DNA of 64,000 nt from an uncultured Litoreibacter sp. (lineage in GTDB: Bacteria > Pseudomonadota > Alphaproteobacteria > Rhodobacterales > Rhodobacteraceae): contig CANLOU010000001.1 of the NCBI GenBank assembly GCA_947492995.1, forward strand, positions 372,001 to 436,000, given 5' to 3'. Every line of letters starts with the position of its first letter. Position 1 is the first letter of the stretch. The notes beneath the pieces are model-generated. The model was not told the origin of the DNA, searched no databases, and worked only from the letters and a program-made list of their open reading frames with translations. Positions 14,836 through 43,417 of the stretch are shown here, one piece after another. The position numbers and the translations under genes are program-made.

Positions 14836-14845
14836 GAGATCCGCC

Positions 14846-17662: not shown

Positions 17663-17671
17663 CCTCTTCCC

Positions 17672-17749
17672 ATGTTTCAAAATATCCCCGCCGGAGGCAG
17701 AAATTTTCTTCTACGAAGAAAATTGCAAGAATTTTCGACGAAAATTCTT
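17672..17749. repeat. Dispersed repeat core plus two-hairpin AT palindrome unit
   Basis: The soeA-soeB spacer holds CCCATGTTTCAAAATATCC (about 17670-17688), then palindromes AATTTTCTTC/GAAGAAAATT (17702-17724) and AAGAATTTTCG/CGAAAATTCTT (17727-17749) separated by two bases. The same hairpin pair lies at 32830-32878. Being inside an operon without a T-run, it is more likely an mRNA-stability or REP-like element than a terminator. Confidence 0.65.
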
Positions 17750-17777
17750 CCTCCCTCCATGCATCGGAGGTCACGCT

Positions 17778-19585: not shown

Positions 19586-20893
19586 TCAGTCATACCGCTC
19601 TTGATGCGACACCTCGAAATCAAAGCTGTTCTTCCCGCTGAACTTCTGAAGCCGCCAATCGCACGCCCGCGCATGCCCGTCCATGCCCTCCAGCCGCGAC
19701 AGCCGTGAGCCCACCTCCGACATCTCGGGATCCGCATCTGTCCCGATCTCCTGCCAGGTCAGGATCTTCAAAAACTTCATCACATTCAGCCCGCCGGTAT
19801 AGCGCGCGGCCTGCCGCGTCGGCAGGATATGGTTGGTCCCCGAACACTTGTCCCCGTGGGATACGGTCGACCCCTCGCCCAGGAACAGCGAGCCATAATT
19901 CTTCAGCCGGTCCCGCCACCAAACCAAATCCTTGGCCTGCACCTGCAAATGCTCGCAGGCATATTTGTCCGACACCACCGCCATCTCCTCATTGTCCTCG
20001 CAGACAATAATTTCGCCGTAGTCGCGCCACGAAATCATTGCAACCTCTCCGGTCGGCCAGTCCGCCGCAACCTTGGGCAATATCTCGTTCACCTGATCCG
20101 CCAGCTTCGCTGACGTCGTGAACAGCCAAACCGGCGAGTTCACCCCATGCTCCGCCTGAGACAGCAAATCAATCGCCACCGTCATCGGGTCCGCCGTCTC
20201 ATCCGCAATCACTGCGCTCTCGGTTGGCCCCGCGAACAGGTCGATCCCAACGCCCCCAAACAGCTGCAGCTTGGCCTCCGCCACAAAGGCGTTGCCCGGC
20301 CCAACCAAAATGTCTGCCGGCCGCGTTCCAAACAGCCCAAATGCCATCGACGCCACGGCCTGCACGCCGCCCATTTCCAAAATCACGTCGGCGCCTGCCA
20401 AGGTCATCGCGTAACACACCGCCGGATCAATCGCGTCGCCGCGCGGTGGGGAGGCGGCCGTGACAAATTCAACCCCTGCCGCCTTCGCAGTCGCCACGCT
20501 CATCAGGGCTGATGCTACATGCGCGTAGCGACCGCCCGGCACGTAGCAGCCAGCGGCTTCCACGGGCACACATTTCTGGCCCAGCGTCACACCCGGTTCG
20601 GTCTCCAACGAGAAATCGCTCAAGCTCGCGCGCTGCGCCTCGGCAAAGCGCTTGATCTGGCGATGCGCAAATTGGATGTCGCGCTTGGCTTGTTCAGGCA
20701 CCTGCGCGTTCAGCATCTCCCGTTTGGTGTCTGACAAGACAAACTCGCCGTCCCAGCCGTCCAAGGTCTTGGCGTAGTCTCGCACCGCATCTTCGCCCCC
20801 CGCCCGAATGGTATTGAGCATGTCGAGCACCAATCCGCGGGTCTTCGTATCCTCAGCAACTTTGTCGACGATTGGGGTTTTGATATGTTTCAT
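19586..20893 (-). CDS. hpsN: Sulfopropanediol 3-dehydrogenase-like (histidinol dehydrogenase family)
   Basis: The 435-residue protein is a full histidinol-dehydrogenase fold: zinc ligands expected at Gln246, His249, Asp348 and His407, and the catalytic pair Glu314-His315 (YACEHLQV), are all present. There are no his genes nearby; instead the context is organosulfonate catabolism. HpsN members oxidise (R)-2,3-dihydroxypropane-1-sulfonate to sulfolactate with NAD, so this is the best reading. No hpsO/hpsP or sulfolactate lyase genes lie in the window. An AAAGG ribosome site precedes the ATG. The alternative is another sugar-alcohol dehydrogenase of this family. Confidence 0.72.
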   Translation of the reverse strand: MKHIKTPIVDKVAEDTKTRGLVLDMLNTIRAGGEDAVRDYAKTLDGWDGEFVLSDTKREMLNAQVPEQAKRDIQFAHRQIKRFAEAQRASLSDFSLETEPGVTLGQKCVPVEAAGCYVPGGRYAHVASALMSVATAKAAGVEFVTAASPPRGDAIDPAVCYAMTLAGADVILEMGGVQAVASMAFGLFGTRPADILVGPGNAFVAEAKLQLFGGVGIDLFAGPTESAVIADETADPMTVAIDLLSQAEHGVNSPVWLFTTSAKLADQVNEILPKVAADWPTGEVAMISWRDYGEIIVCEDNEEMAVVSDKYACEHLQVQAKDLVWWRDRLKNYGSLFLGEGSTVSHGDKCSGTNHILPTRQAARYTGGLNVMKFLKILTWQEIGTDADPEMSEVGSRLSRLEGMDGHARACDWRLQKFSGKNSFDFEVSHQERYD

Positions 20894-24325: not shown

Positions 24326-25768
24326 TCAAAAGTCGACCGCCATGTATTTGGTCTCCATGTAGTCCTCAAGACCCTGGCTGCCGCCCTCTTTGCCAAGGCC
24401 GCTTTCCTTGACCCCGCCAAAGGGCGTTTCAACGGTTGTAATGAGCCCCGAGTTGATCCCGATCATGCCGTATTGCAGCTTTTCGTTCAGCTTGAAGATG
24501 CGGCCAATGTCGCGGGTATAGGCGTAGGACGCCAACCCGAACTCGGTGTCATTGGCCCATGCAATCGCGTCGTCCTCGTCCTCGAACTTGAACACCGGAG
24601 CGATGGGGCCAAAGATTTCCTCTTTGGCAAACATCATGTCCTGCGTCGCATCGGTGATGATGGTGGGGTTGAAGAAGCTGTGGCCCTGCGCGTTGCGGTC
24701 CCCGCCGAAGGCCACGTTGCCGCCCTTGGCGGTCGCGTCTGCGATGAATTCTTCCACCTTCTCGACCGCGTCCATGTCGATCATCGGGCCTTGCTCCACG
24801 CCCGCTTCCAGACCGTTGCCGACCTTCATCTTGGCCGTGGCCGCTGTCAGCTTTTTAACAAATTCGTCGTAAACGCCCGCCTGCACATACATGCGGTTGG
24901 CGCAGACGCAGGTTTGGCCCGAGTTGCGGAATTTCGACACCATCGCGCCCTGCACTGCGGCATCAATGTCCGCGTCATCGAAAACCAAGAACGGCGCGTT
25001 GCCGCCCAATTCCATCGACACTTTCTTCACGGTTCCGGCCGACTGGCGGATCAGCTCTTTGCCAACCTCGGTGGAGCCCGTGAAGGTCACCTTGCGCACG
25101 CGCGGGTCTTCCATGATCGCGCCGCCGATTTTGCGGGCAGACCCTGTCACCACATTGACCGACCCCGCAGGGAAGCCTGCTTCTTCGGCCAATGCGCCCC
25201 ACGCCAGACCGGAATACGGCGTCGCCGTCGCAGGCTTGGCCACAACGGTGCAGCCAATCGCCAGCGCAGGCGCCACTTTGCGCGCCAGCATCGAGGACGG
25301 GAAGTTCCAAGGCGTAATCATCCCAACCACCCCGATGGGGTGTTTGGTCACAAGGAAGCGGCGCCCGTTGGTCGGCGCAGGAACAATCTCGCCCTTGGCG
25401 CGGCGGACTTCTTCGGCAAACCAGCGCACGTAGGCCGCCCCAATGCCAATCTCGCCCATCGACTCCGCCAGCGGCTTGCCCATTTCAACGGTCAGCAGCT
25501 CGGCCAGCGTCTTTTGGTTGTCCATCAGGGCGTCATGCATCTTCATCAACATGCCCACACGTTCCATCAGGCCCATGCCTGCCAGCCCGTCGAATGCCGC
25601 GTCCGCCGCGTCAATCGCCCGCAAGGCCTCAACGTCGCCAGAGTTCGGGACGGTCCCGATCACCTCACCCGTCGCGGGGTTGGTCACGTCGATGGTGTCG
25701 CCGCTGTCAGCCGCAACCCATTTGCCGCCAATGAAGTTCGCCTCTTTCATGTATTGTGTGTAGCTCAT
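24326..25768 (-). CDS. GabD-like aldehyde dehydrogenase, candidate sulfolactaldehyde dehydrogenase
   Basis: This 480-residue NAD(P)-dependent dehydrogenase is most like succinate-semialdehyde dehydrogenase. The general-base Glu lies in ELGGNAPFLVF and the catalytic Cys in NSGQTCVCANR. In sulfosugar pathways GabD-type enzymes oxidise 3-sulfolactaldehyde to sulfolactate, and here the gene closes an operon with a sulfofructose-kinase-like kinase and an aldolase, so that role is favoured. Ordinary succinate-semialdehyde or lactaldehyde oxidation cannot be excluded. The gene starts only a few bases after the mutarotase stop. Confidence 0.8.
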   Translation of the reverse strand: MSYTQYMKEANFIGGKWVAADSGDTIDVTNPATGEVIGTVPNSGDVEALRAIDAADAAFDGLAGMGLMERVGMLMKMHDALMDNQKTLAELLTVEMGKPLAESMGEIGIGAAYVRWFAEEVRRAKGEIVPAPTNGRRFLVTKHPIGVVGMITPWNFPSSMLARKVAPALAIGCTVVAKPATATPYSGLAWGALAEEAGFPAGSVNVVTGSARKIGGAIMEDPRVRKVTFTGSTEVGKELIRQSAGTVKKVSMELGGNAPFLVFDDADIDAAVQGAMVSKFRNSGQTCVCANRMYVQAGVYDEFVKKLTAATAKMKVGNGLEAGVEQGPMIDMDAVEKVEEFIADATAKGGNVAFGGDRNAQGHSFFNPTIITDATQDMMFAKEEIFGPIAPVFKFEDEDDAIAWANDTEFGLASYAYTRDIGRIFKLNEKLQYGMIGINSGLITTVETPFGGVKESGLGKEGGSQGLEDYMETKYMAVDF

Positions 25769-25775
25769 CGCTCAT

Positions 25776-26762
25776 TCATCCTTTGGAAAACGCAAATTGC
25801 GTGTGTTGTTCATAAACTTCGCCGGGGCGCAGCACCGCGTTGGGGAAGGCCGGGTGGTTCACCGCATCCGGCCAAACCTGAGGCTCCAACGCGACACCCG
25901 CATTCTTGCCATAGCGACGCCCCCCAAGGCCCGCAGGCCCGACATCTAACTTGAACCCGTCATAAACCTGCAGCCCCGTCTCGGTCGAGCGTATTTGCAT
26001 CGAAATGCCGGATTTTTGAGAGGTTAAAGTCCCAATTTTCCGTAAATCCATGCGTCCGTTAGAAAGGCACAGGTTGTGGTCGATGAAGACCTCGTCCTTG
26101 ATCGGCCGCATTTGTCGGAAATCATACCGAGTCCCATCGACGTGAACACTTTCGCCCGTCGGGATAAACCCGTCATCGACTTGCGTCATGTGCTCCGCAT
26201 CGACCTGCATAAGGTGGTCATCCGTGGTCGGCCCACCGTCCAGATTCCAATAGGTGTGATGGGCGAAGTTGCACAGCGTCGGCGCGTCGCTTTCCGCAGA
26301 AATCTGAATATCGAACACGCCGCCCGCCAGGCAGGCATAGGTGCAGCGCGCCACCATATTGCCGGGGTAGCCCATCTCGCCATCCGCCAGCTCGATCCGC
26401 AGGGTGATCCGGTCCACGCCCGCGCTTTCCACCGTCCAGTTCCGCTTTCCCACCCCTGTCGCGCCGCCATGCAAATGATGGCGCTCCTGAAAATTCCGGT
26501 CCACCTGATAGGCGGTCCCGTCAATGGAAAACCGTCCGTCGCCAATCCGGTTGGCGCAGCGCCCGGCAATGGCCCCAAAGTAGGGCGAGTCCGTCAGGTA
26601 GGGCGCAAACTCCTCAAACCCCAAGACCAGCGGCGCGTCATGCCCCTCCAATCGCAGGTCCTGCAAGACCGCGCCGTAAGACAACACATGCGCGGTCAGC
26701 CCGCCGCCTTGAATGGTATGGCGTTCCACCGCCCCGCCATCCGGCATGACACCAAAGCTCAC
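25776..26762 (-). CDS. Aldose 1-epimerase (mutarotase), probably for sulfoquinovose
   Basis: The 328-residue protein has the GalM pattern: catalytic-site histidines in RHHLHGG and FAHHTYWNLDGG, and the ALEPQVWPDAVNHP segment containing the catalytic Glu. It interconverts anomers of a free sugar. It starts with GTG and overlaps the upstream gene's stop (GTGA), directly between a putative glycosidase and a dehydrogenase. In the proposed pathway it would equilibrate sulfoquinovose anomers before isomerisation; the sugar is inferred from the operon. Confidence 0.85.
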   Translation of the reverse strand: MSFGVMPDGGAVERHTIQGGGLTAHVLSYGAVLQDLRLEGHDAPLVLGFEEFAPYLTDSPYFGAIAGRCANRIGDGRFSIDGTAYQVDRNFQERHHLHGGATGVGKRNWTVESAGVDRITLRIELADGEMGYPGNMVARCTYACLAGGVFDIQISAESDAPTLCNFAHHTYWNLDGGPTTDDHLMQVDAEHMTQVDDGFIPTGESVHVDGTRYDFRQMRPIKDEVFIDHNLCLSNGRMDLRKIGTLTSQKSGISMQIRSTETGLQVYDGFKLDVGPAGLGGRRYGKNAGVALEPQVWPDAVNHPAFPNAVLRPGEVYEQHTQFAFSKG

Positions 26763-27850
26763 GGACCCTTCCCCCGCAGATCAATCGCCTGACCGGACCG
26801 CGCGGATTCCTCCGCCGCCTCACCGACCAACACGGACCAGTAGCCATCCATCACCGACACCTCCGGCGCGCCGTGCCCCGTGCGCACCAGTTCCAAAAAC
26901 TTCTCATGCTGGAAAAATGTGGACCCATGATGGTCGCCAGCCGCCAGAATATGCTCCGGAACATGCACCACCTCGCGCACCTCTTCCTTCAGCGCGCGCA
27001 ACGACATCACGAACTCCGCCTCGCGTTCTTTCCCATCCGGCGAGAACCGCGCTGGCCCCGGCACAAACGCCTCCACCCGCGCCTTTTCTCCTGTGACCGC
27101 AATCGTTTCCTGCCAGAACGATCCTTCGGCAAACATGCACAAATCCAGCATGCCGCGCGACCCGTTGTCAAAATCCACCACCACATAGGCGTTGTCGATA
27201 ATGTCCGGCATCTGCCCCATATACCGCTCGTCGCGGTGGTTTACGTCCACACCTGCTGACGCGTAGACCCGCACCGGATCGGATTTCAAAACCAGCCGCA
27301 TCAGGTCCCAGAAATGGCAACATTTCTCGGTCAACGTGCCGCCGGTCCGCGCATTGAACCGGTTCCAGTCGTCCACCTTCGGCAGGAATGGGAAGCGGTG
27401 CTCGCGGATCGACATCATGCGCGGGGTGCCCACCGCGCCCTGATCCACGGCCTGCATCAGCCGCTGCAGCGGCGGCATATAGCGGTATTCCATCGCCACC
27501 CAAACCGGGGCCACCCGCCCCTTGGACATGTTCAGCAAGTCCCGGCAATCGGCAGAGGTCGTGGCCAGCGGCTTCTCCACCAAGATCGGCTTCTCCGTCG
27601 CCAACAGCTTTTGCATAATCCCCGCATGGGTGTCATTCGGCGCGGCCACCAGCACCACATCGCAGGCGTCAGCCGCCAGCATTTCCTCCATCGAGGCATA
27701 GCCCGCGCCGCCGGACGTCTTTACCGACAGCGCCCGCATCTCTTCATTCGGGTCGGCAATCGCGCCCACACACGCGCCCTCAAGCAGCGATATGTTGCGG
27801 ATGTGCTCCTGGCCCATCATGCCAGAGCCAATGATCCCGTATCTAATCAC
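26759..27850 (-). CDS. Gfo/Idh/MocA oxidoreductase-fold protein, candidate NAD-dependent sulfoquinovosidase
   Basis: The 363-residue protein has an N-terminal Rossmann motif (GIIGSGMMGQEH), the EKPLA lysine motif near residue 95 and a C-terminal alpha/beta domain with REHRFPFLP and TLTEKCCHFWDLMRL segments. The family contains dehydrogenases and also NAD-dependent glycosidases; family GH188 sulfoquinovosidases, as I recall, have this fold and occur with sulfo-EMP2 genes. Placement between a mutarotase and a fucose-isomerase-like gene fits that role. It starts with GTG and overlaps both neighbours. A plain sugar dehydrogenase is the alternative. Confidence 0.7.
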   Translation of the reverse strand: MIRYGIIGSGMMGQEHIRNISLLEGACVGAIADPNEEMRALSVKTSGGAGYASMEEMLAADACDVVLVAAPNDTHAGIMQKLLATEKPILVEKPLATTSADCRDLLNMSKGRVAPVWVAMEYRYMPPLQRLMQAVDQGAVGTPRMMSIREHRFPFLPKVDDWNRFNARTGGTLTEKCCHFWDLMRLVLKSDPVRVYASAGVDVNHRDERYMGQMPDIIDNAYVVVDFDNGSRGMLDLCMFAEGSFWQETIAVTGEKARVEAFVPGPARFSPDGKEREAEFVMSLRALKEEVREVVHVPEHILAAGDHHGSTFFQHEKFLELVRTGHGAPEVSVMDGYWSVLVGEAAEESARSGQAIDLRGKGP

Positions 27851-29199
27851 GCGCCCAGCTCCACCACATTCAGCCCCATTCCGGCGGCAATCCCACGCAA
27901 CGCGTCACGGTGGTCACCATAGGCAATCGCCATGTGATGCTCCAACCCGCAATCCATGACGTCGCCCAGAATTTTCTGCGCAGCATGGTCAAACCGCACC
28001 ACGCCGGAGGTCCCCGTGAACGCCATTTCGCTGCGCAGCATTTCTCCGCCTGCAATGATGATTTTTGGCGTGCCATATGCTTGCGACAGCCGGAAGAACG
28101 TCACCCGCCCCGGCTTCAAGGTGAACTCGTAAAGCAGCGCTTGCTTGCGGTTGGTATGCACCGTCGCCATCGGCTCATCATCCGTCATCGACAGCGGGGC
28201 CTGCCCGCAATGCCAGACAACGCCTGTGTCGTCTTCGACGTCCATATCGACCAAATCAGCCAGGAAAACAGGGCTATCTGCCACTTTTTGTAGGATCGCC
28301 TGCGTCACCGCGCCGTAGACATCCGCCTCGCAAGCGCATGGCACCCGCGCCTCGCCCATCATCGAAACGGGGCCGCACACGGCGCCGCCATATTCGGTAA
28401 ACGTCTCGGGCCAGCAGCGGATTGCAAAGGCGTCATAGCTGTTTTCGCTGCGCAGCATTTCCAACGCGCCTGCCAGCCGCAAAGATCGGTCCAACTCGCC
28501 CGCGTCCATGTCTTTCAGGTTCGGCACATCCGCGACCTTGTCGCGGTAAGGCGCGACCGCAGCATCGTCCAGCCCCCGCGCAGCGTCGAACATGTCCTCC
28601 AGCGCCAATTCATCGACCGACGCCCCGGTCAGCGCCTTCAGCTCCACCTTGTCATAGGCGCAGGTGTCAAACCCAACGGGATGCGCCCCGATCCGCGCAA
28701 TCTTCAAATCCGGCACCGGCATGTCAGACGCGGCCACGCCCGCGGCGCTGCCGTCAATCCGCGACACCGCATAGTCGCCCGCCAAAAGCCCTGCCAAATC
28801 CGCCTTGCCCGGGTCGCCATAAAGCCAGCCAAAGCCAACCCCGTTGCGCCCCAAGGCGTGGCCCGCAAGGTTCAGCCCACAAAACGCGTTCAGCCGCAAC
28901 CGGCCCCCAAGCCGGGGCTCCGGCACCGCCCAGATCGCAAGCGGCACGCCCAGCTTGGACGCCTCCACCACGAAGGCCGCGTCGGTGAATGTCACCTGCA
29001 GCACCAACACCAGATCAGCCGACGCAACGCTCGATAATGCCTCCGGCGACCCCTCCATCAGCAGAGCGCGCGGCCCGATGACCTCGTGGCCCTCCCGGGA
29101 TGCAAGCGCATCAATATCCGCCAGCATCCCCGCCAGTTTCTCCTCGGCGTAAGGCACGTCAAAGGTTGGCCGCCCCAGCGGCAGCAATCCGATTTTCAT
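27847..29199 (-). CDS. L-fucose/arabinose isomerase-like protein, candidate sulfoquinovose isomerase
   Basis: This 450-residue protein has the layout of the fucose-isomerase superfamily (COG2407-like): Glu265 in RCWPETFTEYGG, Asp293 in CEADVYGAVTQ and His421/His422 in GLEHHMAIAYGD sit where the metal ligands of L-fucose isomerase fall. It should convert an aldose to a ketose with a divalent metal. In the sulfo-EMP2 pathway the isomerase (SqvD, as I recall) is of this kind rather than YihS. It abuts the aldolase gene with no gap and overlaps the next gene by GTGA. Confidence 0.75.
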   Translation of the reverse strand: MKIGLLPLGRPTFDVPYAEEKLAGMLADIDALASREGHEVIGPRALLMEGSPEALSSVASADLVLVLQVTFTDAAFVVEASKLGVPLAIWAVPEPRLGGRLRLNAFCGLNLAGHALGRNGVGFGWLYGDPGKADLAGLLAGDYAVSRIDGSAAGVAASDMPVPDLKIARIGAHPVGFDTCAYDKVELKALTGASVDELALEDMFDAARGLDDAAVAPYRDKVADVPNLKDMDAGELDRSLRLAGALEMLRSENSYDAFAIRCWPETFTEYGGAVCGPVSMMGEARVPCACEADVYGAVTQAILQKVADSPVFLADLVDMDVEDDTGVVWHCGQAPLSMTDDEPMATVHTNRKQALLYEFTLKPGRVTFFRLSQAYGTPKIIIAGGEMLRSEMAFTGTSGVVRFDHAAQKILGDVMDCGLEHHMAIAYGDHRDALRGIAAGMGLNVVELGA

Positions 29200-30225
29200 C
29201 TAGATGCCCTCATAGCCATGCCGGAAAGATGCGTCCGCAGGCGCAAACTGTGCGCCACCTTCACCCCAACACGCATGCTGATCCCACGCCGTGGCTTTCG
29301 CATCCGCCAACGCCGAAATCTCGGCCATATAGGCGGCACTTTCGCCCTCAAGCCCGGCCCGCACCGCGTCCCAATCCGGGAACGCCTGAAAGGCGTCCAG
29401 CCAAATGGCGCGCCCGGCCAGAAAGCCGGAGGCCCCAGCCGCAAACGCATGTTCCAAAATCTGCTTGAACTCCGGCTTGCCTGCGCCTGCCGACAACATC
29501 ACCCAAGGCCGGCCGCTCAAACGCCCCATCTCGTCAAACAGGGCCTGAACGCCGTCTGTCGTTGCCACATCTTTCGCGGGCACCGGGCTTTCCAGCTTGA
29601 ACACGTCCACGCCGTAATCGGCATGCGCGAACTCTTCGACCGACTTCAAAACGTCATCCGCCCGCTTGGTGTTCATTTCCACATATTCCGAGGTCTGCTC
29701 TGCATCGCTGTCAATCGGATGCACCAGCAGTTCAAACAGAAACGGGATGTCGTACTGGGCGCAGGCCTCGCCGATCCGCTTGGTCCAGTCCCGCTGCGCT
29801 TGGTTGACTTCGGCGCTGGCATCCGGCCGGTACCACGCCAGCACCTTCACCGCGTCGCCGCCCATGCGTTTGATCTTGCCCACGTCCCAATCGTCAATGG
29901 ACGACGACAGCCGCCCCATCCCCGTCTCCTCGAACAGCGAGTCCTCCAGCGTCACGATCAGACCCTTCGTGGGCGACAAATACTTCAACCCAACCGGTAT
30001 CGCGTAATGGGGGTCCAGAAGCATGGCGGATGATCCGCCCTGTAACGTCTCCACCAGCATCGCCTTGAACCGCGCCACGTCGTCATAAGGCGCTTCGTCA
30101 GTGCCATAATGGGCCGCAATCGGCCCCTTGATCGGTGGCCGCTGGTCCACCGCGGTCATCTTGAAGACCCCATTCGCGTCGGCCATGCGCCGCATGCCCC
30201 ATAGTTTGCCTGCTGTCAGCTGCAT
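29200..30225 (-). CDS. Class I LacD/YihT-like aldolase, candidate sulfofructose-phosphate aldolase
   Basis: The 341-residue protein resembles tagatose-1,6-bisphosphate aldolase LacD. KMTAVDQRPP lies near residue 22, and the probable Schiff-base lysine is Lys210 in YGVDVFKLESPV. It would split a ketose-1-phosphate to dihydroxyacetone phosphate and an aldehyde; with a sulfofructose kinase upstream the aldehyde would be sulfolactaldehyde. YihT, the sulfofructose-phosphate aldolase of E. coli, is in the same superfamily. It is preceded by GAGAGAG and separated from the kinase by one base. Confidence 0.82.
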   Translation of the reverse strand: MQLTAGKLWGMRRMADANGVFKMTAVDQRPPIKGPIAAHYGTDEAPYDDVARFKAMLVETLQGGSSAMLLDPHYAIPVGLKYLSPTKGLIVTLEDSLFEETGMGRLSSSIDDWDVGKIKRMGGDAVKVLAWYRPDASAEVNQAQRDWTKRIGEACAQYDIPFLFELLVHPIDSDAEQTSEYVEMNTKRADDVLKSVEEFAHADYGVDVFKLESPVPAKDVATTDGVQALFDEMGRLSGRPWVMLSAGAGKPEFKQILEHAFAAGASGFLAGRAIWLDAFQAFPDWDAVRAGLEGESAAYMAEISALADAKATAWDQHACWGEGGAQFAPADASFRHGYEGI

Positions 30226-30226
30226 C

Positions 30227-31087
30227 TCATGCTCTCTCTTTCAAAAACTGTTCCACGGCGGCCCGCGAGGGCGCCGCTTTGCGCCCCCCGAAGCCCGTGC
30301 ATTTCAGGGCGGCCGCCGCATGGGCAAACCGCATCGCCTCTTCTTCGCCGGCACCTTCGCCCAGCAGCAGGGTAAACGCCCCGTGCCACACATCGCCTGC
30401 GCCAAGCGTGTCTTTCACATCCACCTTGAACCCCGGCATCACGCCGCCCGGATGCAACACGCCATCCGCCCCCAGCGTCACAGCGCACCAGCCCGGAAGG
30501 TCGAGCGCGGCGTAGGCCGCGCGGACATCGTCCAAGCCGGTGAAATCCATCAATCCCTGCTCGGAAAACACCACATGGGACGCCGCTGCCGCCAATGCCA
30601 CCGGCACCGGAGCCTCCCCATCCAGCACCGCAGGCACGCCCAGGGCGCGCCCCATCTCAATCACCTGCCGCGCGGCTTCCGGCCAGCGGGTGTCGGTCAG
30701 AACGGCGTCGGCGCGCAATTCCGACAGACCCGGGTCCTCAGCCAGCCCCGCCCCACGAAACGCCATGATCTGCCTCTCGCCCGAGGCATCCACATAGACC
30801 GAGGACATGGCTGACCGCGCGCCCTTGGTGATCACACAGGTTGATGTGTCAACATTCTCTGACAGAATATCCCCAAGAACGATCTCAGATATTTCATCTT
30901 TGCCAAATCTCGCTAATAATTGGGACTTTCCGCCCAATCGCGCGATACCCACAGCGGCGTTCGCGGCGCATCCGCCCCCAACTATATCCACAGCCTTGGC
31001 CGCGTATTTTTCGGCCCGCTGGGGCAGTGCGTCTACCTGATAGACAAAATCTAACGCGGCGGAGCCCGCGACCATCACGCGTGTCAT
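30227..31087 (-). CDS. PfkB-family kinase resembling sulfofructose kinase YihV
   Basis: The 286-residue kinase has VGGGCAANAAVGIARLGG near residue 36 and the ATP/anion-hole motif DTLGAGDVWHGA. Compared from memory with E. coli YihV, Lys27 (in PQRAEKYAAK) aligns with YihV Lys27 and Arg134 (in LTDTRWPEA) with YihV Arg138, two of the three residues recalled to bind the sulfonate; the third, YihV Asn109, is Ala109 here. ATG 31087 is used; it shares one base with the stop of the peroxidase gene (TGATG). The product would be a ketose 1-phosphate. Confidence 0.82.
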   Translation of the reverse strand: MTRVMVAGSAALDFVYQVDALPQRAEKYAAKAVDIVGGGCAANAAVGIARLGGKSQLLARFGKDEISEIVLGDILSENVDTSTCVITKGARSAMSSVYVDASGERQIMAFRGAGLAEDPGLSELRADAVLTDTRWPEAARQVIEMGRALGVPAVLDGEAPVPVALAAAASHVVFSEQGLMDFTGLDDVRAAYAALDLPGWCAVTLGADGVLHPGGVMPGFKVDVKDTLGAGDVWHGAFTLLLGEGAGEEEAMRFAHAAAALKCTGFGGRKAAPSRAAVEQFLKERA

Positions 31088-32340
31088 CAATCCACCTTCA
31101 GCCCGCTGGGAACGGCCTTTGGCTTGCCCAGCCGCCCATAGATCGACTGCTTGCCGGTCAAGGCCCCCATGAAGGTCACAAGGTCCATGACCTCATCATC
31201 GCTCAACGCCTTCGGCTCCAGATCAATCGACGCACGGACCCGCGCCATCTCGCGTCTGTCTTGGTGGATGATAAAATCAGCGCTCTGCAGCCAAGGCACG
31301 GATGGCAGCTGCGCCATATCGCCAACCCACGCGTCCAAGCCCGACACGGGGTCCAGATGATGACGAATGATCCCCTCCAACGTGGCGTAGGCGCCGTTAT
31401 GCCCGTAGGGCCCCGTCAGCGCGACGTTGCGCAAAGACGGCGTGCGGAACCGGTAGGCATCCTCCAAGGCATCGCTTTCCGCCATGCGTCCCACATCGCG
31501 TGGCATCGGGTCAAACCGCCTTGTGCGCCCCGGCCCAAAGGGCGGCAGCCCAATGGCGTGGAAGTCCTGATCGGTGAATAGTGGCCCGCTATGGCAGTCC
31601 GCGCAGCCTGCCTTGCCAAAAAACAGGTCCTGCCCGCGAGCCTGCGCCGCATCCAGAACGCCCGCATCATAGGCACTGTCAAACGACCGCCATTCGGCGT
31701 CCATGAACGCGCCCAGGGCGTTGCCGATATCGGCAATCGTGACCTTTTCGACGCCAGCGCCGGCAAACATCTCGCGGTATTCATCAATGATCCGCACCCG
31801 CTTGGCCAGGATCGGCCAGGCCATGTCAATGCGGTCGTGAATGGCACCGGCGACCTCGTTTTCCTTCGGGTTGCCCGCCATTTCAAACTGCGATGTCATC
31901 GGGAACAACGCCTGCGCCGCCAGCAAACTCGCAACCCCGTCCGGCAGAAATTCTTCCGCGGGGGAATTCACCCCATTGCCGTAATCCGGCGACGAGCCCA
32001 ACCGACCGTCGTGGAAAAACACATCCAGCGCGCCGACATTGAACAAGGCCTGCGCGTTGCGTGGAATGCGCTTCTTGATGCGGTTTGGCCCGTCCAAGGC
32101 GATGCGTTTTGGCCCGATGCCAACACCGCCCTCGCCGATCCCGAGGCTCACGCCATCGGCTGAAAACGTATCATGGTTGTGGCATGTCCCGCATGAGATG
32201 TTGCGGTTCCCCGACAGGATCGGGTCATAAAACAGCAGCTGCCCGATCGCGGCCATATCCTCGTCAATCGGGGCAAACATGCCGTCTGGCGCTTGGGCCA
32301 TTGCAGGTCCCGCCGCCGCCAGCCAAACTGCGCCCAACAA
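31087..32340 (-). CDS. Di-haem cytochrome c peroxidase/MauG-family protein at the head of the sugar operon
   Basis: Two haem-binding motifs are visible: CGTCH near the mature N-terminus and CADCH in the middle (GKAGCADCHSG). The length, about 417 residues, fits bacterial cytochrome c peroxidase/MauG proteins. A Sec signal (LGAVWLAAAGPAMAQ) targets it to the periplasm. The start is uncertain: no ATG is well placed, and TTG at 32340 (or the next codon) is the most plausible. The open frame continues upstream, but that part is antisense to the Sel1 gene. The gene is coupled to the kinase by TGATG, so it is cotranscribed with sugar catabolism. Confidence 0.82.
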   Translation of the reverse strand: MLGAVWLAAAGPAMAQAPDGMFAPIDEDMAAIGQLLFYDPILSGNRNISCGTCHNHDTFSADGVSLGIGEGGVGIGPKRIALDGPNRIKKRIPRNAQALFNVGALDVFFHDGRLGSSPDYGNGVNSPAEEFLPDGVASLLAAQALFPMTSQFEMAGNPKENEVAGAIHDRIDMAWPILAKRVRIIDEYREMFAGAGVEKVTIADIGNALGAFMDAEWRSFDSAYDAGVLDAAQARGQDLFFGKAGCADCHSGPLFTDQDFHAIGLPPFGPGRTRRFDPMPRDVGRMAESDALEDAYRFRTPSLRNVALTGPYGHNGAYATLEGIIRHHLDPVSGLDAWVGDMAQLPSVPWLQSADFIIHQDRREMARVRASIDLEPKALSDDEVMDLVTFMGALTGKQSIYGRLGKPKAVPSGLKVD

Positions 32341-32352
32341 ACGGAGACTGAC

Positions 32353-32820
32353 ATGCGCTTTCTTGCCATCCTTGCCCTGATGACGCTGCCCGCGGGTGCG
32401 GACATTGAAAAGGCCCGCGACCTGATGGACGCGAATAAATTCGAAGAGGCGCGCGAGGCGCTTTGGCCCGCCGCCCGTTCCGGCAACGCCGACGCGGAGG
32501 AGCTGATTGGCGTCATGTACGCCCTCGGCCTCGGCGTCGAGAAGGACCCGGTCCGCGCGTTTGAATGGTATCTGCGCAGCTCGATGAAGGGCCATCCCGG
32601 CGCGCAATCCGGTATCGGTTGGTATTATGAAGAAGGCATCGGCATGCCCGCGCCGGACCTCGTCCGCGCTTACATGTGGTACGCCCTGAGCGCCATCGGC
32701 GGTGATCCCGACGCAGCTATCTCCCAGGAGGAGGTGGTCAAGAAGATGACCAAAGAGCAGATTGACCACGCGCATGAGCTAATCGCCGATTACAAAGTTT
32801 GGATGTATCCGTTCCGTTGA
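32353..32820 (+). CDS. Secreted Sel1-repeat protein
   Basis: The 155-residue protein has a short hydrophobic start (MRFLAILALMTLPAGA) as signal peptide and then Sel1/TPR-like repeats (IGVMYALGLGVEKDPVRAFEWY, then a GWYYEEGIGMP...RAYMWY repeat). GGAG lies 6 bases before the ATG. It is divergent from the peroxidase gene, and the two 5' ends lie within about 15 bp of each other. Sel1 proteins usually scaffold other proteins; the partner is unknown. Confidence 0.8.
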   Translation: MRFLAILALMTLPAGADIEKARDLMDANKFEEAREALWPAARSGNADAEELIGVMYALGLGVEKDPVRAFEWYLRSSMKGHPGAQSGIGWYYEEGIGMPAPDLVRAYMWYALSAIGGDPDAAISQEEVVKKMTKEQIDHAHELIADYKVWMYPFR

Positions 32821-32829
32821 CGAAGGAGT

Positions 32830-32878
32830 AAATTTCTTCTCCGAAGAAATTTGTAAGAATTTTCGATCGAAAATTCTT
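32830..32878. repeat. Two-hairpin AT-rich palindrome unit
   Basis: AAATTTCTTC/GAAGAAATTT (32830-32852) is followed by a palindrome centred on TTCGATCGAA (32855-32878). The order and 2-base spacer match the pair in the soeA-soeB gap. The unit lies between the convergent Sel1 and dctP ends. Confidence 0.75.
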
Positions 32879-32885
32879 CCCCCGC

Positions 32886-32915
32886 AAAAAGCCGCAGCGG
32901 GACACCCGCTGCGGC
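32886..32915 (-). terminator. Rho-independent terminator after dctP
   Basis: GCCGCAGCGGG (32891-32901) and its exact complement CCCGCTGCGGC (32905-32915) form an 11-bp stem with a 3-base loop. On the minus strand five T's follow (32886-32890). It separates the TRAP transporter transcript from the sugar operon. Confidence 0.9.
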
Positions 32916-32923
32916 TTGGCTCT

Positions 32924-33997
32924 TTACTTCAGGTCCGCATCACGCGCGGCATTCACCGCAGCTTCCGCGTCCGCGACAGCCGCCGTCAGCGCATCAAACG
33001 CCGCTTCGCCACCGTCAACATTGCCTTTGAACCAGTCATAAACAGGGGCAGCCGCGTCCTTGAACGCCGCTTTCTGCTCTGGTGTTGGCACGTACAGATC
33101 ACCACCTGCCGCGACGAAGTCTTCGTAGGCTTGGATCGACTTGCGCTTAGGTGACGCAAATGTGGCCTGCTGCAACTGGTAGAACCCGTCCACAACAACG
33201 CGCTTCAGCCCGTCATCCATCGACTGGAACTTCTCGTTGTTCATGAACCACAGCGCGCCCATATAGGCGTGCCCGTCCAGCGTCACGTATTTCAGGCCGG
33301 CATCGGGGAACTTCATGTTCATGATGTCGGTGATGCCGTTTTTGGATCCTTCCACAACGCCCGTCTGAAACGAGGTGAACAGCTCAGGCCATGGGATCGG
33401 GGTTGGCGACGCGCCTAGCGCTTTGACCAGCTCCTGCGGCAGGTCGGCCACAACGGTGCGGATTTTCAGCCCGTCCATGTCAGCAGGCTCAGCCACACGG
33501 CGCTTGGTGTTGGCAAAGTTGCGCCAGCCGCCGGTGTTGCCGATCGTCATCAGGCGGATGCTGTCGCCCGACGCTTCCTTAACCATATCCTGCATGGTGG
33601 TGGTGAAGCCCGACCCGTTGGCCAAAGCGGCCTCCGCAATCCGGTCATCCGCCATCAGGTAGGGCAGGTCCAGCACTTGAATGAACGGGAAGATGCCCGA
33701 CACGCCGCCCGAAGTGGACACATAGACGTCAATCGTGCCGTCGCCCACGCCCTGCAGACACTCAGCGCCGTTGCCGCACAGCTGCGTGCCGATGAACAGC
33801 TCAACCGTGATTGCGCCGTTGGAGGCCGCTTCCACGTAGTTTTTGAACACGACCAGACCGTCATAATCCTCGTCGTTCTCGTTCGAGTTCGCGGTCGCAC
33901 GAATGGTCATCGCATGACCGTCCGCCCAGGCCGCGACGCTGGTCGAGGCCATCATGGCCGCAAGGCCCAGCGCCTTCAAAGTGGTTCCTAATTTCAT
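32924..33997 (-). CDS. dctP: TRAP transporter substrate-binding protein, candidate sulfosugar binder
   Basis: This 357-residue periplasmic protein has a signal peptide (MKLGTTLKALGLAAMMASTSVAA, about 30 residues) and a DctP fold (VELFIGTQLCGN, VRTVVADLPQELVKALGASPTPIPWPE with the conserved Arg of TRAP binders). ATG 33997 follows GGGAGG by 7 bases. It is the last gene of a Q-M-P operon and probably takes up the sugar or sulfosugar of the adjacent operon; the substrate cannot be read from the sequence. Two cysteines (QLCGNGAECLQG) may form a disulfide. Confidence 0.9.
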   Translation of the reverse strand: MKLGTTLKALGLAAMMASTSVAAWADGHAMTIRATANSNENDEDYDGLVVFKNYVEAASNGAITVELFIGTQLCGNGAECLQGVGDGTIDVYVSTSGGVSGIFPFIQVLDLPYLMADDRIAEAALANGSGFTTTMQDMVKEASGDSIRLMTIGNTGGWRNFANTKRRVAEPADMDGLKIRTVVADLPQELVKALGASPTPIPWPELFTSFQTGVVEGSKNGITDIMNMKFPDAGLKYVTLDGHAYMGALWFMNNEKFQSMDDGLKRVVVDGFYQLQQATFASPKRKSIQAYEDFVAAGGDLYVPTPEQKAAFKDAAAPVYDWFKGNVDGGEAAFDALTAAVADAEAAVNAARDADLK

Positions 33998-34028
33998 AAG
34001 TAATCCTCCCATTGGATCTTTTGGTTAT

Positions 34029-35315
34029 TTACAGAAAGCCGAACAGCCCCGGCACGAACAGCGAGATCGCCGGCACGTAGGTTATCAGGAATATCACCGC
34101 AATTTCGACGGCGAGGAAAGGCAGAATCGCTTTGGCAATGGCCTCTACCCGCTCGCCCGACACGGAGGACGCCACAAACAGCACCAGCCCCATCGGCGGC
34201 GTCGCCAGCCCCACGGTCAGGTTCACCGACATGATGATCGCGAAATGTACGGGGTCCACGCCAAGCGACGTAAAGATGGGGGCCAGGATTGGCCCCAGAA
34301 TGATGATCGCGGGGCCCGCGTCCAGAAACATGCCAACGATAAACAGCAGCAGGTTGATGAGGAACAGAAGCACCAGCGGGTTCGAGGACAGCGACAAGAT
34401 GTAGGCGGCCAAAGTCTCCGGCGCGTGGGACAGGCTCACCACCGTTTTGAATGCCATGGCCGCGCCCACCAGCAGCAGCACCACTGACGAGGTCAGCGCC
34501 GCCTTAATCAACACGTCCGGCAGGTCCTTCAAAGACATCTCTTTCAGGATGAAGATTGATACGAGGAAGGCGTAGAACACCGCAACTGCCGCCGCCTCGG
34601 TGGGGGTGAACACGCCGCCCAAAATGCCGCCCAAAATGATAACAGGCGTCAGCAGCGGGAAGAACGCTTTGAGCGAGGCCTGCCCTTTTTCGGACCATGA
34701 CGCCCGTTCCCGCGACTTGGGGAAGTCGGCAGAATTGGCCATGTAGGACGTCATCGCCATCAGGCCCGCGCCCACCAGAACCCCTGGCACGATGCCCGCA
34801 AGGAACAGGGCCGCCACGCTTTCGCCCATCACATAGGCGTAGATAATCATGATGCCCGAGGGCGGGATGATCGGCCCAATCACCGAGGACGCCGCCGTGA
34901 TCGCCGCCGCGAAGCGGCGGGTGTAGCCCTCTTTCTCCATCGCGGGGATCAGCATCGAGCCCAGCGCAGACGTATCCGCCACAGCCGACCCGCTCAACCC
35001 GGCAAACAGCATCGACGACAGAATGTTCACCTGCGCCAAGCCGCCCTTCAGGTGACCCACGCATGCCTGCGAGAATTCCACCAGCCGCATCGTGATGCCA
35101 CCGCGGTTCATCATCTCGCCCGCCAGCATGAAGAACGGGATCGCCATCAGCGGGAAGCTGTCGATGCCGTTATAGACGTTGCGGTACAGCAGCGTGATGT
35201 CCTTTTCCTGCCCGTTGGCCCACAGCAGCAGGCCCGGCGCGGCAACAAGGCCAAAGAACACCGGCAGGCCGATGCACAGAAACAGCAAAAACAGCGGAAG
35301 GAACCATACCAGCAT
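34029..35315 (-). CDS. dctM: TRAP transporter large permease
   Basis: The 428-residue protein has about 12 membrane helices and DctM signatures (FAGLSGSAVADTSALGS, IGPIIPPSGIMI). It forms the transport channel, driven by an ion gradient. The start at 35315 overlaps the dctQ stop (TGATG); an upstream in-frame extension is antisense-like noise inside dctQ. It has the normal family length. Confidence 0.93.
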   Translation of the reverse strand: MLVWFLPLFLLFLCIGLPVFFGLVAAPGLLLWANGQEKDITLLYRNVYNGIDSFPLMAIPFFMLAGEMMNRGGITMRLVEFSQACVGHLKGGLAQVNILSSMLFAGLSGSAVADTSALGSMLIPAMEKEGYTRRFAAAITAASSVIGPIIPPSGIMIIYAYVMGESVAALFLAGIVPGVLVGAGLMAMTSYMANSADFPKSRERASWSEKGQASLKAFFPLLTPVIILGGILGGVFTPTEAAAVAVFYAFLVSIFILKEMSLKDLPDVLIKAALTSSVVLLLVGAAMAFKTVVSLSHAPETLAAYILSLSSNPLVLLFLINLLLFIVGMFLDAGPAIIILGPILAPIFTSLGVDPVHFAIIMSVNLTVGLATPPMGLVLFVASSVSGERVEAIAKAILPFLAVEIAVIFLITYVPAISLFVPGLFGFL

Positions 35316-35905
35316 CAGTCGGCTCCCAACGTCGCGGCTTCGGGGATCACCGGCAGGTCGTCGCCATGCCCCAGCATGATCGCGATCTGGCGCAGGATCA
35401 TCTCGACCGTGACGGACACCATCAAGGTGAAGCCCACCAGCAGGGACGCCATCATCCACGACCGCGGCACGCGGAACCATTCGGTGAAGGACACGTTCGT
35501 CGGCAGCCACAGGGCCGCCGTTTTGAACCGCCCGCCAAAGCCTGTGACCTCGCCCCAGCCGATTTTGACGGCGGTGACCAGCACCAGCAAGGCGATGAAC
35601 AGCAGGAACATGTTCAGCAGGGCCGCCACGATCCGGGGCATCATCAGCACCAGCATGTCAATCGCCACGAACCCGCCACGCCGGTAGGCGGTGGGTGCCA
35701 CCAATCCTGTCATCCACAACATCATGAAACGCGCGGCCTCGTCCGGCCATGGAAGGGCGTTGTTCAGGACGTAGCGAAAGAAAACCTGCAGCAGGATTGC
35801 AAAGACCATCAACCCAATCAGCACAACCGAGATATGCCGGCCAATGGCCAACAAAGCGCTGTTGATAAGCGCCAGCACACGAGCTGCCCCCAATATCGCT
35901 GTCAT
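35315..35905 (-). CDS. dctQ: TRAP transporter small permease
   Basis: This 196-residue, four-helix DctQ-type membrane protein has a conserved WPDEAARFMMLWM segment near residue 53. It pairs with DctM. GGGAGG lies 4 bases before the ATG. It is the first gene of the TRAP operon; an inverted repeat rich in TTTCG/CGAAA lies at 35941-35970 upstream and is the likely operator. Confidence 0.9.
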   Translation of the reverse strand: MTAILGAARVLALINSALLAIGRHISVVLIGLMVFAILLQVFFRYVLNNALPWPDEAARFMMLWMTGLVAPTAYRRGGFVAIDMLVLMMPRIVAALLNMFLLFIALLVLVTAVKIGWGEVTGFGGRFKTAALWLPTNVSFTEWFRVPRSWMMASLLVGFTLMVSVTVEMILRQIAIMLGHGDDLPVIPEAATLGAD

Positions 35906-35940
35906 AGTCCTCCCGGGCGCCTCACTTCATTGAAAGCGCG

Positions 35941-35970
35941 TTACTTTCGATTAGTCGTAATCCGAAAGAA
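35941..35970. promoter_or_regulatory. Inverted repeat before the TRAP operon, candidate DeoR operator
   Basis: TTACTTTCGATTA (35941-35953) and TAATCCGAAAGAA (35958-35970) form a near-perfect inverted repeat with a 4-base centre. The TTTCG/CGAAA words recur before the deoR-type gene itself. Confidence 0.55.
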
Positions 35971-35987
35971 CCTGTCAAGACTCGTTT

Positions 35988-36749
35988 TCAGCGATGCGCC
36001 TGCACAAGCTCTACTTCATGGGCCCGGCAAAGCGGCATAACCCACGGGTCATGCACCTGATCGGTCACCACAGTGTGTACATCCGCCAGATGCCCCAGCT
36101 TCACAGGCGCGCTGCGCCCGAACTTGCCTGCATCAATCGCCAATATCACGTGCCGGGCATGGGACATCATCGCGCGGCAGACCTGCACCTCGGCCAAATC
36201 GAAATCCAGCAAGGTGCCATCCTCAGCAAGGGCTGCCGCGCCAATTACGGCGAAATCGACGCGGAACTGCCGGATGTAATCCACGGCCTCCGCGCCAAGG
36301 ATCGCGCCATCGGAACGGCGCACCGCGCCGCCGGGCACAATCACCTCAAGGCCAGGAAAAACACGGATTTCGGCCGCTAGATCAACATTGTCGGTGATAA
36401 CCCGCAGCTGTTGATGGCCCGACATCATCCGCGCCACTTGCGCGGTTGTGGTGCCCGCGTTCAAAAACACTGCGCAGGTCTGCGGGATGCGGCCCGCCAC
36501 CGCCGCGCCGATTGCCTGCTTCTGGTTCAGCGCGTCGCCTTCCCGCTCGGCGGGAGCCGCATATTCGACGCCGCCCACGACGGTCGCGCCGCCGTGAAAC
36601 CGCACCACGTGATGCAGCTCGGCCAACACCTGAAGGTCCTTGCGAATGGTCTGCGGAGAGGTGGCAAATTGCTCTGCCAAATCCTCCACCCGCACCCGTT
36701 GTTGGGCTTCAATTAAATTCAGAATTTTGCGCTGTCGTTGGCTGAGCAT
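35988..36749 (-). CDS. DeoR/GlpR-family regulator of the sugar operon
   Basis: The 253-residue regulator has an N-terminal DeoR helix-turn-helix (residues about 5-57, VRVEDLAEQFATSPQTIRKDL) and a C-terminal DeoR sensor domain (NAGTTTAQVARMM, LGAEAVDYIRQF), which normally binds a phosphorylated sugar. ATG 36749 follows GAGGGG. The sulfoquinovose operon of E. coli is also controlled by a DeoR-type protein (CsqR/YihW), which agrees with the proposed pathway. It lies immediately upstream of the TRAP genes on the same strand. Confidence 0.85.
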   Translation of the reverse strand: MLSQRQRKILNLIEAQQRVRVEDLAEQFATSPQTIRKDLQVLAELHHVVRFHGGATVVGGVEYAAPAEREGDALNQKQAIGAAVAGRIPQTCAVFLNAGTTTAQVARMMSGHQQLRVITDNVDLAAEIRVFPGLEVIVPGGAVRRSDGAILGAEAVDYIRQFRVDFAVIGAAALAEDGTLLDFDLAEVQVCRAMMSHARHVILAIDAGKFGRSAPVKLGHLADVHTVVTDQVHDPWVMPLCRAHEVELVQAHR

Positions 36750-36779
36750 ATGACCCCTCACCCAACCCAAACACAAAAA

Positions 36780-39015: not shown

Positions 39016-39038
39016 GGGTGGTCTCCCTTTCTGGGGCT

Positions 39039-39836: not shown

Positions 39837-39872
39837 AGTACCTCCCAAGGCCGCTCCTCCCCGAGTTGCCTG

Positions 39873-39940: not shown

Positions 39941-39956
39941 ACCTAGGGAGGAAAAG

Positions 39957-41216: not shown

Positions 41217-41223
41217 GCGCGGT

Positions 41224-41285: not shown

Positions 41286-41379
41286 TCACCCTCCAACAAC
41301 GTATCTGCAAAAGCCCGCATAGGCTTTTTCAAATGCGCTGATTTTATTCCGCATCGACCGACCCGTGGGAGGATCCGTC

Positions 41380-42566: not shown

Positions 42567-42570
42567 TAAC

Positions 42571-43416: not shown

Positions 43417-43417
43417 A

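Follow-up and report, generated by a model that had tools for sequence, protein, structure and literature searches.

A predicted sulfoquinovose cassette in an uncultured Litoreibacter, with a TRAP, di-haem and Sel1-repeat front end that also accompanies sulfoquinovose monooxygenase genes

Few organosulfur compounds are as abundant as sulfoquinovose (SQ), the sugar that forms the head group of sulfolipid in plants and algae. Here we describe a locus of an uncultured Litoreibacter sp. that is very probably a complete cassette for SQ import and degradation, in which a hybrid sulfoglycolytic Embden-Meyerhof-Parnas pathway (sulfo-EMP) is combined with a front end consisting of a tripartite ATP-independent periplasmic (TRAP) transporter, a di-haem enzyme and a small Sel1-repeat protein; the same front end is also wed to the SQ monooxygenase pathway (sulfo-SMO). 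The window, that is, the whole stretch of DNA that was analysed, comprises 64,000 nucleotides with a GC content of 57–63% (in 4-kb steps). The genome measures 3.84 Mb, and its nearest named relatives in comparisons of the isomerase belong to Litoreibacter.

Apart from one gene, the cassette lies on the minus strand. At its upstream end is the gene for a DeoR-family regulator (35988..36749; DeoRC PF00455, 1.3e-44, and HTH_DeoR), for which the start given earlier, 36749, is an internal ATG within the frame 35988-36776. The three TRAP genes encode the small membrane subunit DctQ (35315..35905; PF04290, 6.7e-22), the large membrane subunit DctM (34029..35315, with an ATG at 35315; TIGR00786, 440 bits against a cut-off of 268.45) and the solute-binding protein DctP (32924..34012; PF03480, 4.8e-51), the predicted ligand of which is SQ or an SQ glycoside. 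A small, secreted Sel1-repeat protein of 155 aa is encoded on the plus strand (32353..32820; PF08238, 1.4e-15), divergently from the minus-strand gene for a periplasmic di-haem enzyme of the bacterial cytochrome c peroxidase (bCCP)/MauG superfamily (31087..32340; CCP_MauG PF03150, 1e-28). The start codon of the latter gene is uncertain; one possibility, an in-frame TTG near 32340, nearly abuts the Sel1 start. The remaining genes, all on the minus strand, encode a PfkB kinase, predicted to act on sulfofructose (30227..31090; PF00294; start at TTG 31090 or ATG 31087), a class I LacD-like aldolase, predicted to cleave sulfofructose-1-phosphate (29200..30225; DeoC/LacD PF01791), a fucose-isomerase-like protein, predicted to be an SftI/SqvD-type SQ isomerase (27847..29199; Fucose_iso_C PF02952, NF048012), a GH188 NAD-dependent sulfoquinovosidase of the GFO_IDH_MocA family (26759..27850), a GalM-like aldose mutarotase, the predicted SQ mutarotase (25776..26762; Aldose_epim PF01263, 2.7e-72; TIGR02636, 222.8 bits, under the cut-off), and a GabD-like dehydrogenase, predicted to oxidise sulfolactaldehyde (24326..25768; Aldedh PF00171). 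The initial annotation had all of the named genes at the right positions and on the right strand, and the tight run of seven genes that it described is confirmed, the spacings from the di-haem gene to the dehydrogenase gene being -4, +1, 0, -4, -4 and +7 bases. It overlooked the Sel1 gene, however; because this plus-strand gene intervenes between the DctP and di-haem genes, the run of seven and the TRAP genes do not constitute a single, unbroken same-strand operon.

The substrate is indicated by the GH188 protein. Its best matches among solved enzymes are 8zn9 (389 bits), 8qc3 (367) and 8qc2 (361), the next relative scoring 87. The contact residues Lys107, Tyr136, Arg166, Leu170, Lys172, Glu189, His193 and His321 of ArSqgA (Kaur et al. 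2023, PMC10755693) have their equivalents here, at a constant offset of 14, in Lys93, Tyr122, Arg152, Leu156, Lys158, Glu175, His179 and His307; the triad that binds the sulfonate in ArSqgA (Arg166/Leu170/Lys172) is thus kept as Arg152/Leu156/Lys158. All eight are identical in each of the 79 GH188 hits (E ≤ 1e-40) among 93 loci. On the strength of the solved GH188 structures and these residues the Gfo/Idh/MocA protein can be assigned to GH188, and the proposal that the cassette serves SQ or an SQ glycoside is supported.

As to the other enzymes, NCBIfam gives the isomerase a single match at E ≤ 1e-5, to the sulfoquinovose isomerase model NF048012 (8.7e-71), with 238.9 bits, far under the curated cut-off of 700; a useful match was not found for it in the PDB. 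The kinase scores 166.9 bits with the sugar kinase 2rbc, for which no function is stated, 158.9 with the sulfofructose kinase 7ag6 and 84.5 with the best ribokinase; it is placed by these scores in the YihV-type sulfofructose kinase family, far above ribokinases, with the activity itself predicted. For the aldolase the best solved match is 8tnf (296 bits), followed by LacD (about 124) and YihT (about 68–69); the aldolase and YihT belong to the same Pfam superfamily, and Lys210 is the putative Schiff-base lysine. The best solved relative of the dehydrogenase is the succinate-semialdehyde dehydrogenase (SSADH) 3jz4 (575.6 bits). In RlGabD an Arg171/Arg289 pair and a Trp-Asn-Phe motif have been proposed to bind sulfolactaldehyde (PMC10599462), and Trp162, Arg171, Arg289 and Cys295 of that enzyme correspond here, by motif placement with a constant offset of 8, to Trp154, Arg163, Arg281 and Cys287. 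Oxidation of sulfolactaldehyde is the predicted role of the GabD-like enzyme, in agreement with the initial annotation, but SSADH has these motifs too.

Taken in order, DctPQM would import SQ or sulfoquinovosyl glycerol, from which GH188 would set free SQ; the mutarotase and the SqvD-type isomerase would lead to sulfofructose, and the PfkB kinase to sulfofructose-1-phosphate. The LacD-like class I aldolase would cleave the latter into dihydroxyacetone phosphate, which would feed the cell, and sulfolactaldehyde, to be oxidised to sulfolactate by the GabD-like enzyme. The label sulfo-EMP2 given in the initial annotation does not fit this set. In that pathway, as defined, the kinase SqiK is of the PfkA type (PF00365) and the aldolase SqiA of class II (PF01116) (PMC9594981); since the kinase here belongs to PF00294 and the aldolase to PF01791, membership is ruled out, the isomerase type alone being common to the two. 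The predicted pathway is best described as a hybrid sulfo-EMP, in which an isomerase of the EMP2 type is combined with a kinase resembling YihV, a class I aldolase of the LacD type, sulfolactaldehyde oxidation and GH188. Hybrid combinations have already been stated to occur in Proteobacteria and Actinobacteria (PMC12890257), so that hybridity in itself is known.

A survey of isomerase loci, limited to one genome per species, yielded 199 confirmed loci, of which the best 80, many of them contig fragments, were used. Gene presence was scored by tblastn (E ≤ 1e-8), with a few hits representing paralogues (e.g. a 23% GH188 hit in L097). Among the 80 loci, PfkB was present in 73, GH188 and the aldolase in 70 each, DctP in 63, Sel1 in 59 and the di-haem gene in 58; in 60 loci the isomerase was accompanied by all three of PfkB, aldolase and GH188. 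The association of the cassette genes is beyond chance. When only core loci with at least 9 kb of upstream sequence are considered (n = 50), DctP is found in 48 and the di-haem gene with Sel1 in 45, and the two loci lacking DctP lack the di-haem gene as well. The di-haem gene is paired with a divergent Sel1 gene in 58/58 loci, while one Sel1 gene stands alone. Litoreibacter, Jannaschia, Shimia, Thalassobacter, Ahrensia and Hoeflea are among the genera with the pair, and the cassette recurs in Rhodobacterales and some Hyphomicrobiales. None of the ten isomerase loci without GH188 carries the di-haem gene. Loci L069, L075, L082, L090, L099 and L103 have PfkB and GabD, and GH188, the aldolase and the di-haem gene were not found in them; in L075, which has PfkB, isomerase and GabD, an SlcC-like gene follows. 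No PfkB homologue was detected by tblastn in the cassettes L043, L056, L063, L070 and L072, where the kinase may be replaced or encoded elsewhere.

The distribution of the front end was followed in 292 genomes of Rhodobacterales, a sample that includes related genomes, with near copies inflating the counts. Orthologues of the isomerase are present in 19 of them (E < 1e-150; 24 at 1e-20), GH188 in 157 (E ≤ 1e-60) and DctP in 114 (E ≤ 1e-120). Sel1 matches were obtained in 127 genomes at E ≤ 1e-8, 91 of which stand apart at E ≤ 1e-59, the nearest of the remaining matches lying at 1.5e-28; di-haem matches were obtained in 183 at E ≤ 1e-20, with a separate group of 92 at E ≤ 1e-139. All 91 genomes with a close Sel1 gene possess GH188 and this DctP. 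The di-haem gene lies within 2.5 kb in 90 of the 91, DctP within 12 kb in 87, and GH188 within 20 kb in at least 84 (elsewhere in 5), 65 of these 84 being without the isomerase. GH188, in turn, is present in 113 of the 114 DctP genomes and within 20 kb of DctP in 108, and a close Sel1 gene occurs in 91 of the 113 GH188 genomes with this DctP versus none of the 44 without it. The idea that the pair is part of the sulfo-EMP backend is ruled out by its occurrence across the 292 genomes, mostly without the isomerase. A sample of 385 Alphaproteobacteria yielded 11 Sel1 hits at E ≤ 1e-40. Six of these fall outside the family, in five others, and in all six Sel1 has DctP and the di-haem gene beside it. 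Two of the six have the sulfo-EMP backend and two the sulfo-SMO backend; one further case is a 3.2-kb contig from a genome 64% complete, in which GH188 was not found, and in another GH188 (46%) is on a different contig.

In genome G161 the same front end adjoins genes for a flavin reductase, an aldo/keto reductase, a luciferase-like monooxygenase, a GntR regulator and GH188, which by gene family is the make-up of sulfo-SMO. The annotated record of Ruegeria sp. TM1040 shows the same order, again in the SMO form; there the di-haem gene is annotated as cytochrome c peroxidase and the Sel1 gene as a tetratricopeptide repeat protein. On the TM1040 megaplasmid the di-haem gene is followed by one annotated as a putative sulfate exporter family transporter, and DctP and Sel1 are separated by a Dabb family gene. 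At E ≤ 1e-60, no match to the SMO monooxygenase was found in the window genome or in the other genomes with the isomerase beside GH188 (18 in total, 17 with the aldolase in the sequence covered). The monooxygenase is present in 9/9 chosen genomes lacking the isomerase, and also in G052, whose isomerase locus is of another type without GH188. The window's own genus includes a genome with the SMO type (G219, locus L162).

A tree of DctP was constructed from 88 rows: 29 SMO-type loci, the window, and 58 EMP-type loci, which remained of the 62 with DctP after four short or weak ones had been removed. On this tree there are 10 changes of the backend label (9–11 in a bootstrap that has not fully settled; 24.6 in shuffles), at least 5 of the changes being forced by well supported branches. 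The inner order of the front-end block is constant across both backends, and the side on which the backend is attached is not: EMP-type loci have it at the di-haem end in 49/52 cases, the other 3 having it at the DctQ end, as do 25/25 SMO-type loci; these counts show order and not frequency. One EMP contig (L100 and L157) is counted twice, both in the tree and in the order counts. A DeoR homologue is present in 47/72 EMP-type and 0/30 SMO-type loci. As judged from these comparisons, one conserved front end has been exchanged repeatedly between two chemically different SQ pathways. Repeated exchange of the backend behind a conserved DctP would mark the TRAP transporter as the importer of SQ or its glycoside and the di-haem/Sel1 pair as part of uptake. 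TRAP uptake, as initially annotated, is thus supported; the TRAP transporter and the peroxidase, which had been regarded as unusual additions, turn out instead to form a conserved module common to sulfo-SMO clusters. SQ import has been called poorly characterised (PMC8873060), and backend exchange behind one TRAP transporter offers an independent, enzyme-free argument for transport of SQ or an SQ glycoside. The combination of DctP, Sel1 and di-haem enzyme may in addition serve as a metagenome marker for SQ users, whichever pathway they employ.

Both members of the pair have signal-like N-termini (judged by eye) and should be periplasmic, like DctP. The Sel1 protein has a mean column identity of 72% over 41 sequences, in all of which Trp72, Trp90, Trp109 and Trp150 are kept; its AlphaFold model reaches a predicted local distance difference test (pLDDT) value of 90.3, and its fold matches are Sel1-repeat proteins. 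For the di-haem protein (model pLDDT 75.5) the fold search was led by MauG, in complexes, and also returned bCCP and the copper-linked MauG-like protein 6e1c. It possesses the traits of the bCCP/MauG superfamily: the two CxxCH motifs are invariant in 34/34 sequences, as are Gln143, Pro147 and Glu153, the counterparts of the MauG pocket residues Gln103, Pro107 and Glu113 (mature numbering, precursor index -20). The Tyr that ligates the six-coordinate haem in MauG-type enzymes (MauG Tyr294, BthA Tyr463) is absent; its place is taken by His328 in 34/34, and that of MauG Trp93 by His110 in 33/34. The correspondence was checked in an alignment with Paracoccus denitrificans MauG and two proteins annotated as cytochrome c peroxidase (CCP), in which three MAFFT modes agree on the pocket and ligand columns; the printed phmmer alignments place other residues opposite the 1eb7 pocket. 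Tyr occupies the ligand place in both CCP-annotated proteins, one from Ruegeria pomeroyi and one from Rhizobium. The R. pomeroyi protein also has His at the Trp93 place, so that this His is not special. In BthA, exchange of Tyr463 for His abolishes the near-infrared bis-Fe(IV) feature and leaves peroxidase activity intact, and a like loss of bis-Fe(IV) is cited for MauG Y294H (PMC6405878). The window genome encodes two CCP_MauG proteins only, the di-haem enzyme and a 50% identical paralogue, which likewise has His at the ligand place; no separate classical member was found in it. The paralogue (L140:8861-10177) adjoins a 520-aa protein, of FG-GAP/CRTAC1 type by eye, and not a Sel1 gene.

We infer a periplasmic role for the pair, and several functions can be envisaged. 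The di-haem enzyme might be a periplasmic peroxidase of the ordinary, hydrogen-peroxide-reducing kind, of use where SQ comes with photosynthetic debris, and the Sel1 protein its electron-transfer or anchoring partner. This explanation, which falls only somewhat short of an even chance, accords with the invariant Gln/Pro/Glu pocket, with the two His substitutions, given the peroxidase activity kept by BthA Tyr463His, and with the lack of a separate classical CCP_MauG protein in the genome. However, there is no need for a peroxidase of general function to be linked to a single TRAP transporter and a single small protein, as this one is in 90/91 genomes; the 50% paralogue stands beside an unrelated protein; and the CCP-annotated proteins of R. 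pomeroyi and Rhizobium have the Tyr ligand. We tentatively propose, as a possibility of about one in three in our estimation, that many marine Alphaproteobacteria depend for SQ uptake on a dedicated oxidative step in the periplasm. In this reading a di-haem enzyme with bis-His ligation, representing a new functional class, would act on the Sel1 protein, on DctP or on a sulfolipid-derived ligand before import, and the front end would be an interchangeable part joined repeatedly to two unrelated SQ pathways.

Oxidative maturation of a periplasmic protein of the module, either Sel1 or DctP, in the way that MauG matures its partner and MbnH matures MbnP, is a rather unlikely function of the di-haem enzyme. 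The strict, divergent pairing (58/58 loci), the MauG complexes and 6e1c in the fold search and the four conserved Trp residues of Sel1 would suit such a function; yet several such Trp are normal in Sel1 repeats, and His at the Tyr294 and Trp93 places speaks against the known bis-Fe(IV) route. Since bis-Fe(IV) is lost with a His ligand and peroxide reduction is kept in BthA, we rate a peroxide-using enzyme above MauG-type maturation, which in its simple form is disfavoured. Whatever its reaction, a di-haem enzyme with a near-constant small partner is a testable target.

Alternatively, the sugar handled by the cassette might not be SQ but a 6-deoxyhexose or a different 6-deoxy-6-sulfo sugar, for instance sulforhamnose or sulfofucose. 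The fucose-isomerase and LacD-like folds would agree with this, LacD being an enzyme that works on the tagatose series. Sulfofucose is broken down by a Paracoccus (PMC12421959). This alternative is nevertheless improbable in view of the retention of all eight GH188 contact residues, the repeated coupling of the same DctP to sulfo-SMO genes and the different enzymes of the known sulfofucose route, which is of the Entner-Doudoroff type. That the front end has merely been inherited vertically with GH188, without a functional tie to SQ uptake, draws some support from the relatedness of the sampled genomes and their near copies, but is about as improbable given at least 5 backend changes on well supported branches, attachment mostly at opposite module ends and the 6/6 hits outside the family with the di-haem gene and DctP beside Sel1.

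Several observations weigh against the reading of the locus as an SQ cassette with a dedicated front end. The isomerase score lies well beneath the family cut-off, the aldolase is nearer to LacD and to 8tnf, an unnamed DUF2090 protein, than to YihT, and the RlGabD-like residues occur also in SSADH, so that they do not separate sulfolactaldehyde from succinate-semialdehyde dehydrogenases. A ninth GH188 residue, printed as Glu163 (PMC10755693), is unmatched at the offset of 14, where Arg149 is found instead; the next residue, Glu150, aligns with a Glu of ArSqgA, and the printed numbering may be one off. DctP is not close to any solved protein of stated ligand (best match 4p47, 124.9 bits; isethionate-binding 8t9t, 98.5). 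The SMO loci were mostly picked from Sel1-bearing genomes. In G087 and G216 a close homologue of the di-haem gene (E ≤ 1e-139) is present although both the Sel1 partner and GH188 are missing, and G075 has a close Sel1 without a close di-haem gene. Finally, some lineages can dispense with the pair, since 22 of the 113 genomes with DctP and GH188 lack a close Sel1 gene and the di-haem gene is missing from three core loci that do have DctP. Family membership, the GH188 residues, synteny, co-occurrence and backend exchange can be read from the sequences themselves; the substrate of the TRAP transporter and the activity of each enzyme are predictions built upon them.

Parts of the cassette resemble systems already described. 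In sulfo-EMP2 (SqvD, SqiK and SqiA; Bacillus urumqiensis and Megamonas) there is likewise a fucose-isomerase-type isomerase, and the aerobic version oxidises sulfolactaldehyde to sulfolactate, but besides its kinase and aldolase families it differs in having GH31 YihQ instead of GH188, and the term TRAP does not occur in that paper (PMC9594981). The sulfo-EMP of Escherichia coli and Arthrobacter (PMC8873060, PMC12890257) has a kinase of the YihV family and a class I aldolase, and that of Arthrobacter also sulfolactaldehyde dehydrogenase and GH188, as here; unlike here, the isomerase is of the YihS type and import is by ATP-binding cassette (ABC) or other transporters. The actinobacterial clusters with the Tyr variant of GH188 (PMC11465081) share the fucose isomerase, sulfofructose kinase, sulfolactaldehyde dehydrogenase, a phosphoglycerate-dehydrogenase-like gene and, in one of two, the sulfofructose-phosphate aldolase, but have ABC transporters and a sulfolactate sulfo-lyase; the variable GH188 site is Leu here. 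The sulfo-SMO clusters of the Roseobacter clade (PMC10755693, PMC13372026) contain GH188 and, as found in the present analysis, the TRAP-Sel1-di-haem front end; they differ in their backend of monooxygenase, aldo/keto reductase and flavin reductase. MauG of P. denitrificans and BthA (PMC6405878) resemble the di-haem enzyme in fold, five-coordinate haem pocket residues and a possible protein partner, which here is the Sel1-repeat protein, and differ from it at the Tyr ligand and the inter-haem Trp, both His here. The GH188 cluster of Jannaschia faecimaris has been named as a representative one (PMC10755693). Locus L041 is of this species and has the cassette, and the genome matching it by contig position (G154) contains one GH188 gene (E ≤ 1e-60); the enzyme part is therefore very probably in print. 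The covered text of that paper treats the sulfoquinovosidase and the pathway class and does not discuss the di-haem gene, Sel1 or the TRAP front end. Among the papers listed in literature searches, none was found to mention the pair of di-haem enzyme and Sel1 protein, or a TRAP front end common to two SQ pathways, which does not establish absence from print.

The pathway had initially been taken to end at sulfolactate. This is probably too short, as the genome has SlcC-like and ComDE genes and Xsc lies in the window. ComE (238.4 bits, cut-off 221.5), ComD (143.8 bits, just under its cut-off of 147.95) and the SlcC-like gene are side by side on another contig of the window genome; the enzymes would act on sulfolactate, after which Xsc would liberate sulfite. 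In the isomerase loci, where families were counted from crude longest-frame gene calls including antisense frames, a D-2-hydroxyacid dehydrogenase family is present in 32/80 (34 members, 3 on the other strand), a ComE-like family in 10/80 and a ComD-like one in 7/80; the one member tested from each Com family exceeds the cut-off (238.9 versus 221.5 and 154.6 versus 147.95 bits). The sole match to PF04295, which would represent the SuyB route for sulfolactate, lies in a 510-aa frame that we take to be an altronate/galactarate-type dehydratase.

On the plus strand, between 9547 and 19393, a MocR-like regulator gene precedes that of the sulfoacetaldehyde acetyltransferase Xsc (11266..13035; TIGR03457, 930 bits, cut-off 676.4), which is followed by a phosphotransacetylase-like gene (under cut-offs), a gene without a match and a set encoding molybdopterin, iron-sulfur and membrane subunits (14792..19393; PhsA/DmsA- and DmsB-like matches under cut-offs, the third gene without a match). 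The last set presumably encodes the sulfite dehydrogenase SoeABC. This region is likely to be a sulfonate-to-sulfite-to-sulfate island beside the SQ cassette, and full mineralisation of SQ within one cell is plausible.

Outside the cassette, HpsN, the dehydrogenase of 2,3-dihydroxypropane-1-sulfonate, is encoded on the minus strand (19586..20893). NCBIfam alone could not separate it from HisD (TIGR00069 over cut-off), and the comparison with the PDB was decisive: sulfopropanediol 3-dehydrogenase 8v35 scored 502.3 bits versus 235.5 for the best histidinol dehydrogenase, in keeping with the initial annotation. A homologue of HpsN occurs in 5/80 isomerase loci. Directly downstream of the cassette an M19 dipeptidase gene (23246-24226) adjoins a minus-strand pair (21004-23249) consisting of a 201-aa gene without an NCBIfam match and a 547-aa gene without a Pfam match, the latter with a homologue in 9/80 isomerase loci. 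On the other side of the cassette, 37957-45517 holds genes for an ABC-type sugar importer, an IclR-like regulator and a large glycosidase-like protein (43418-45517), as judged by eye from the translations.

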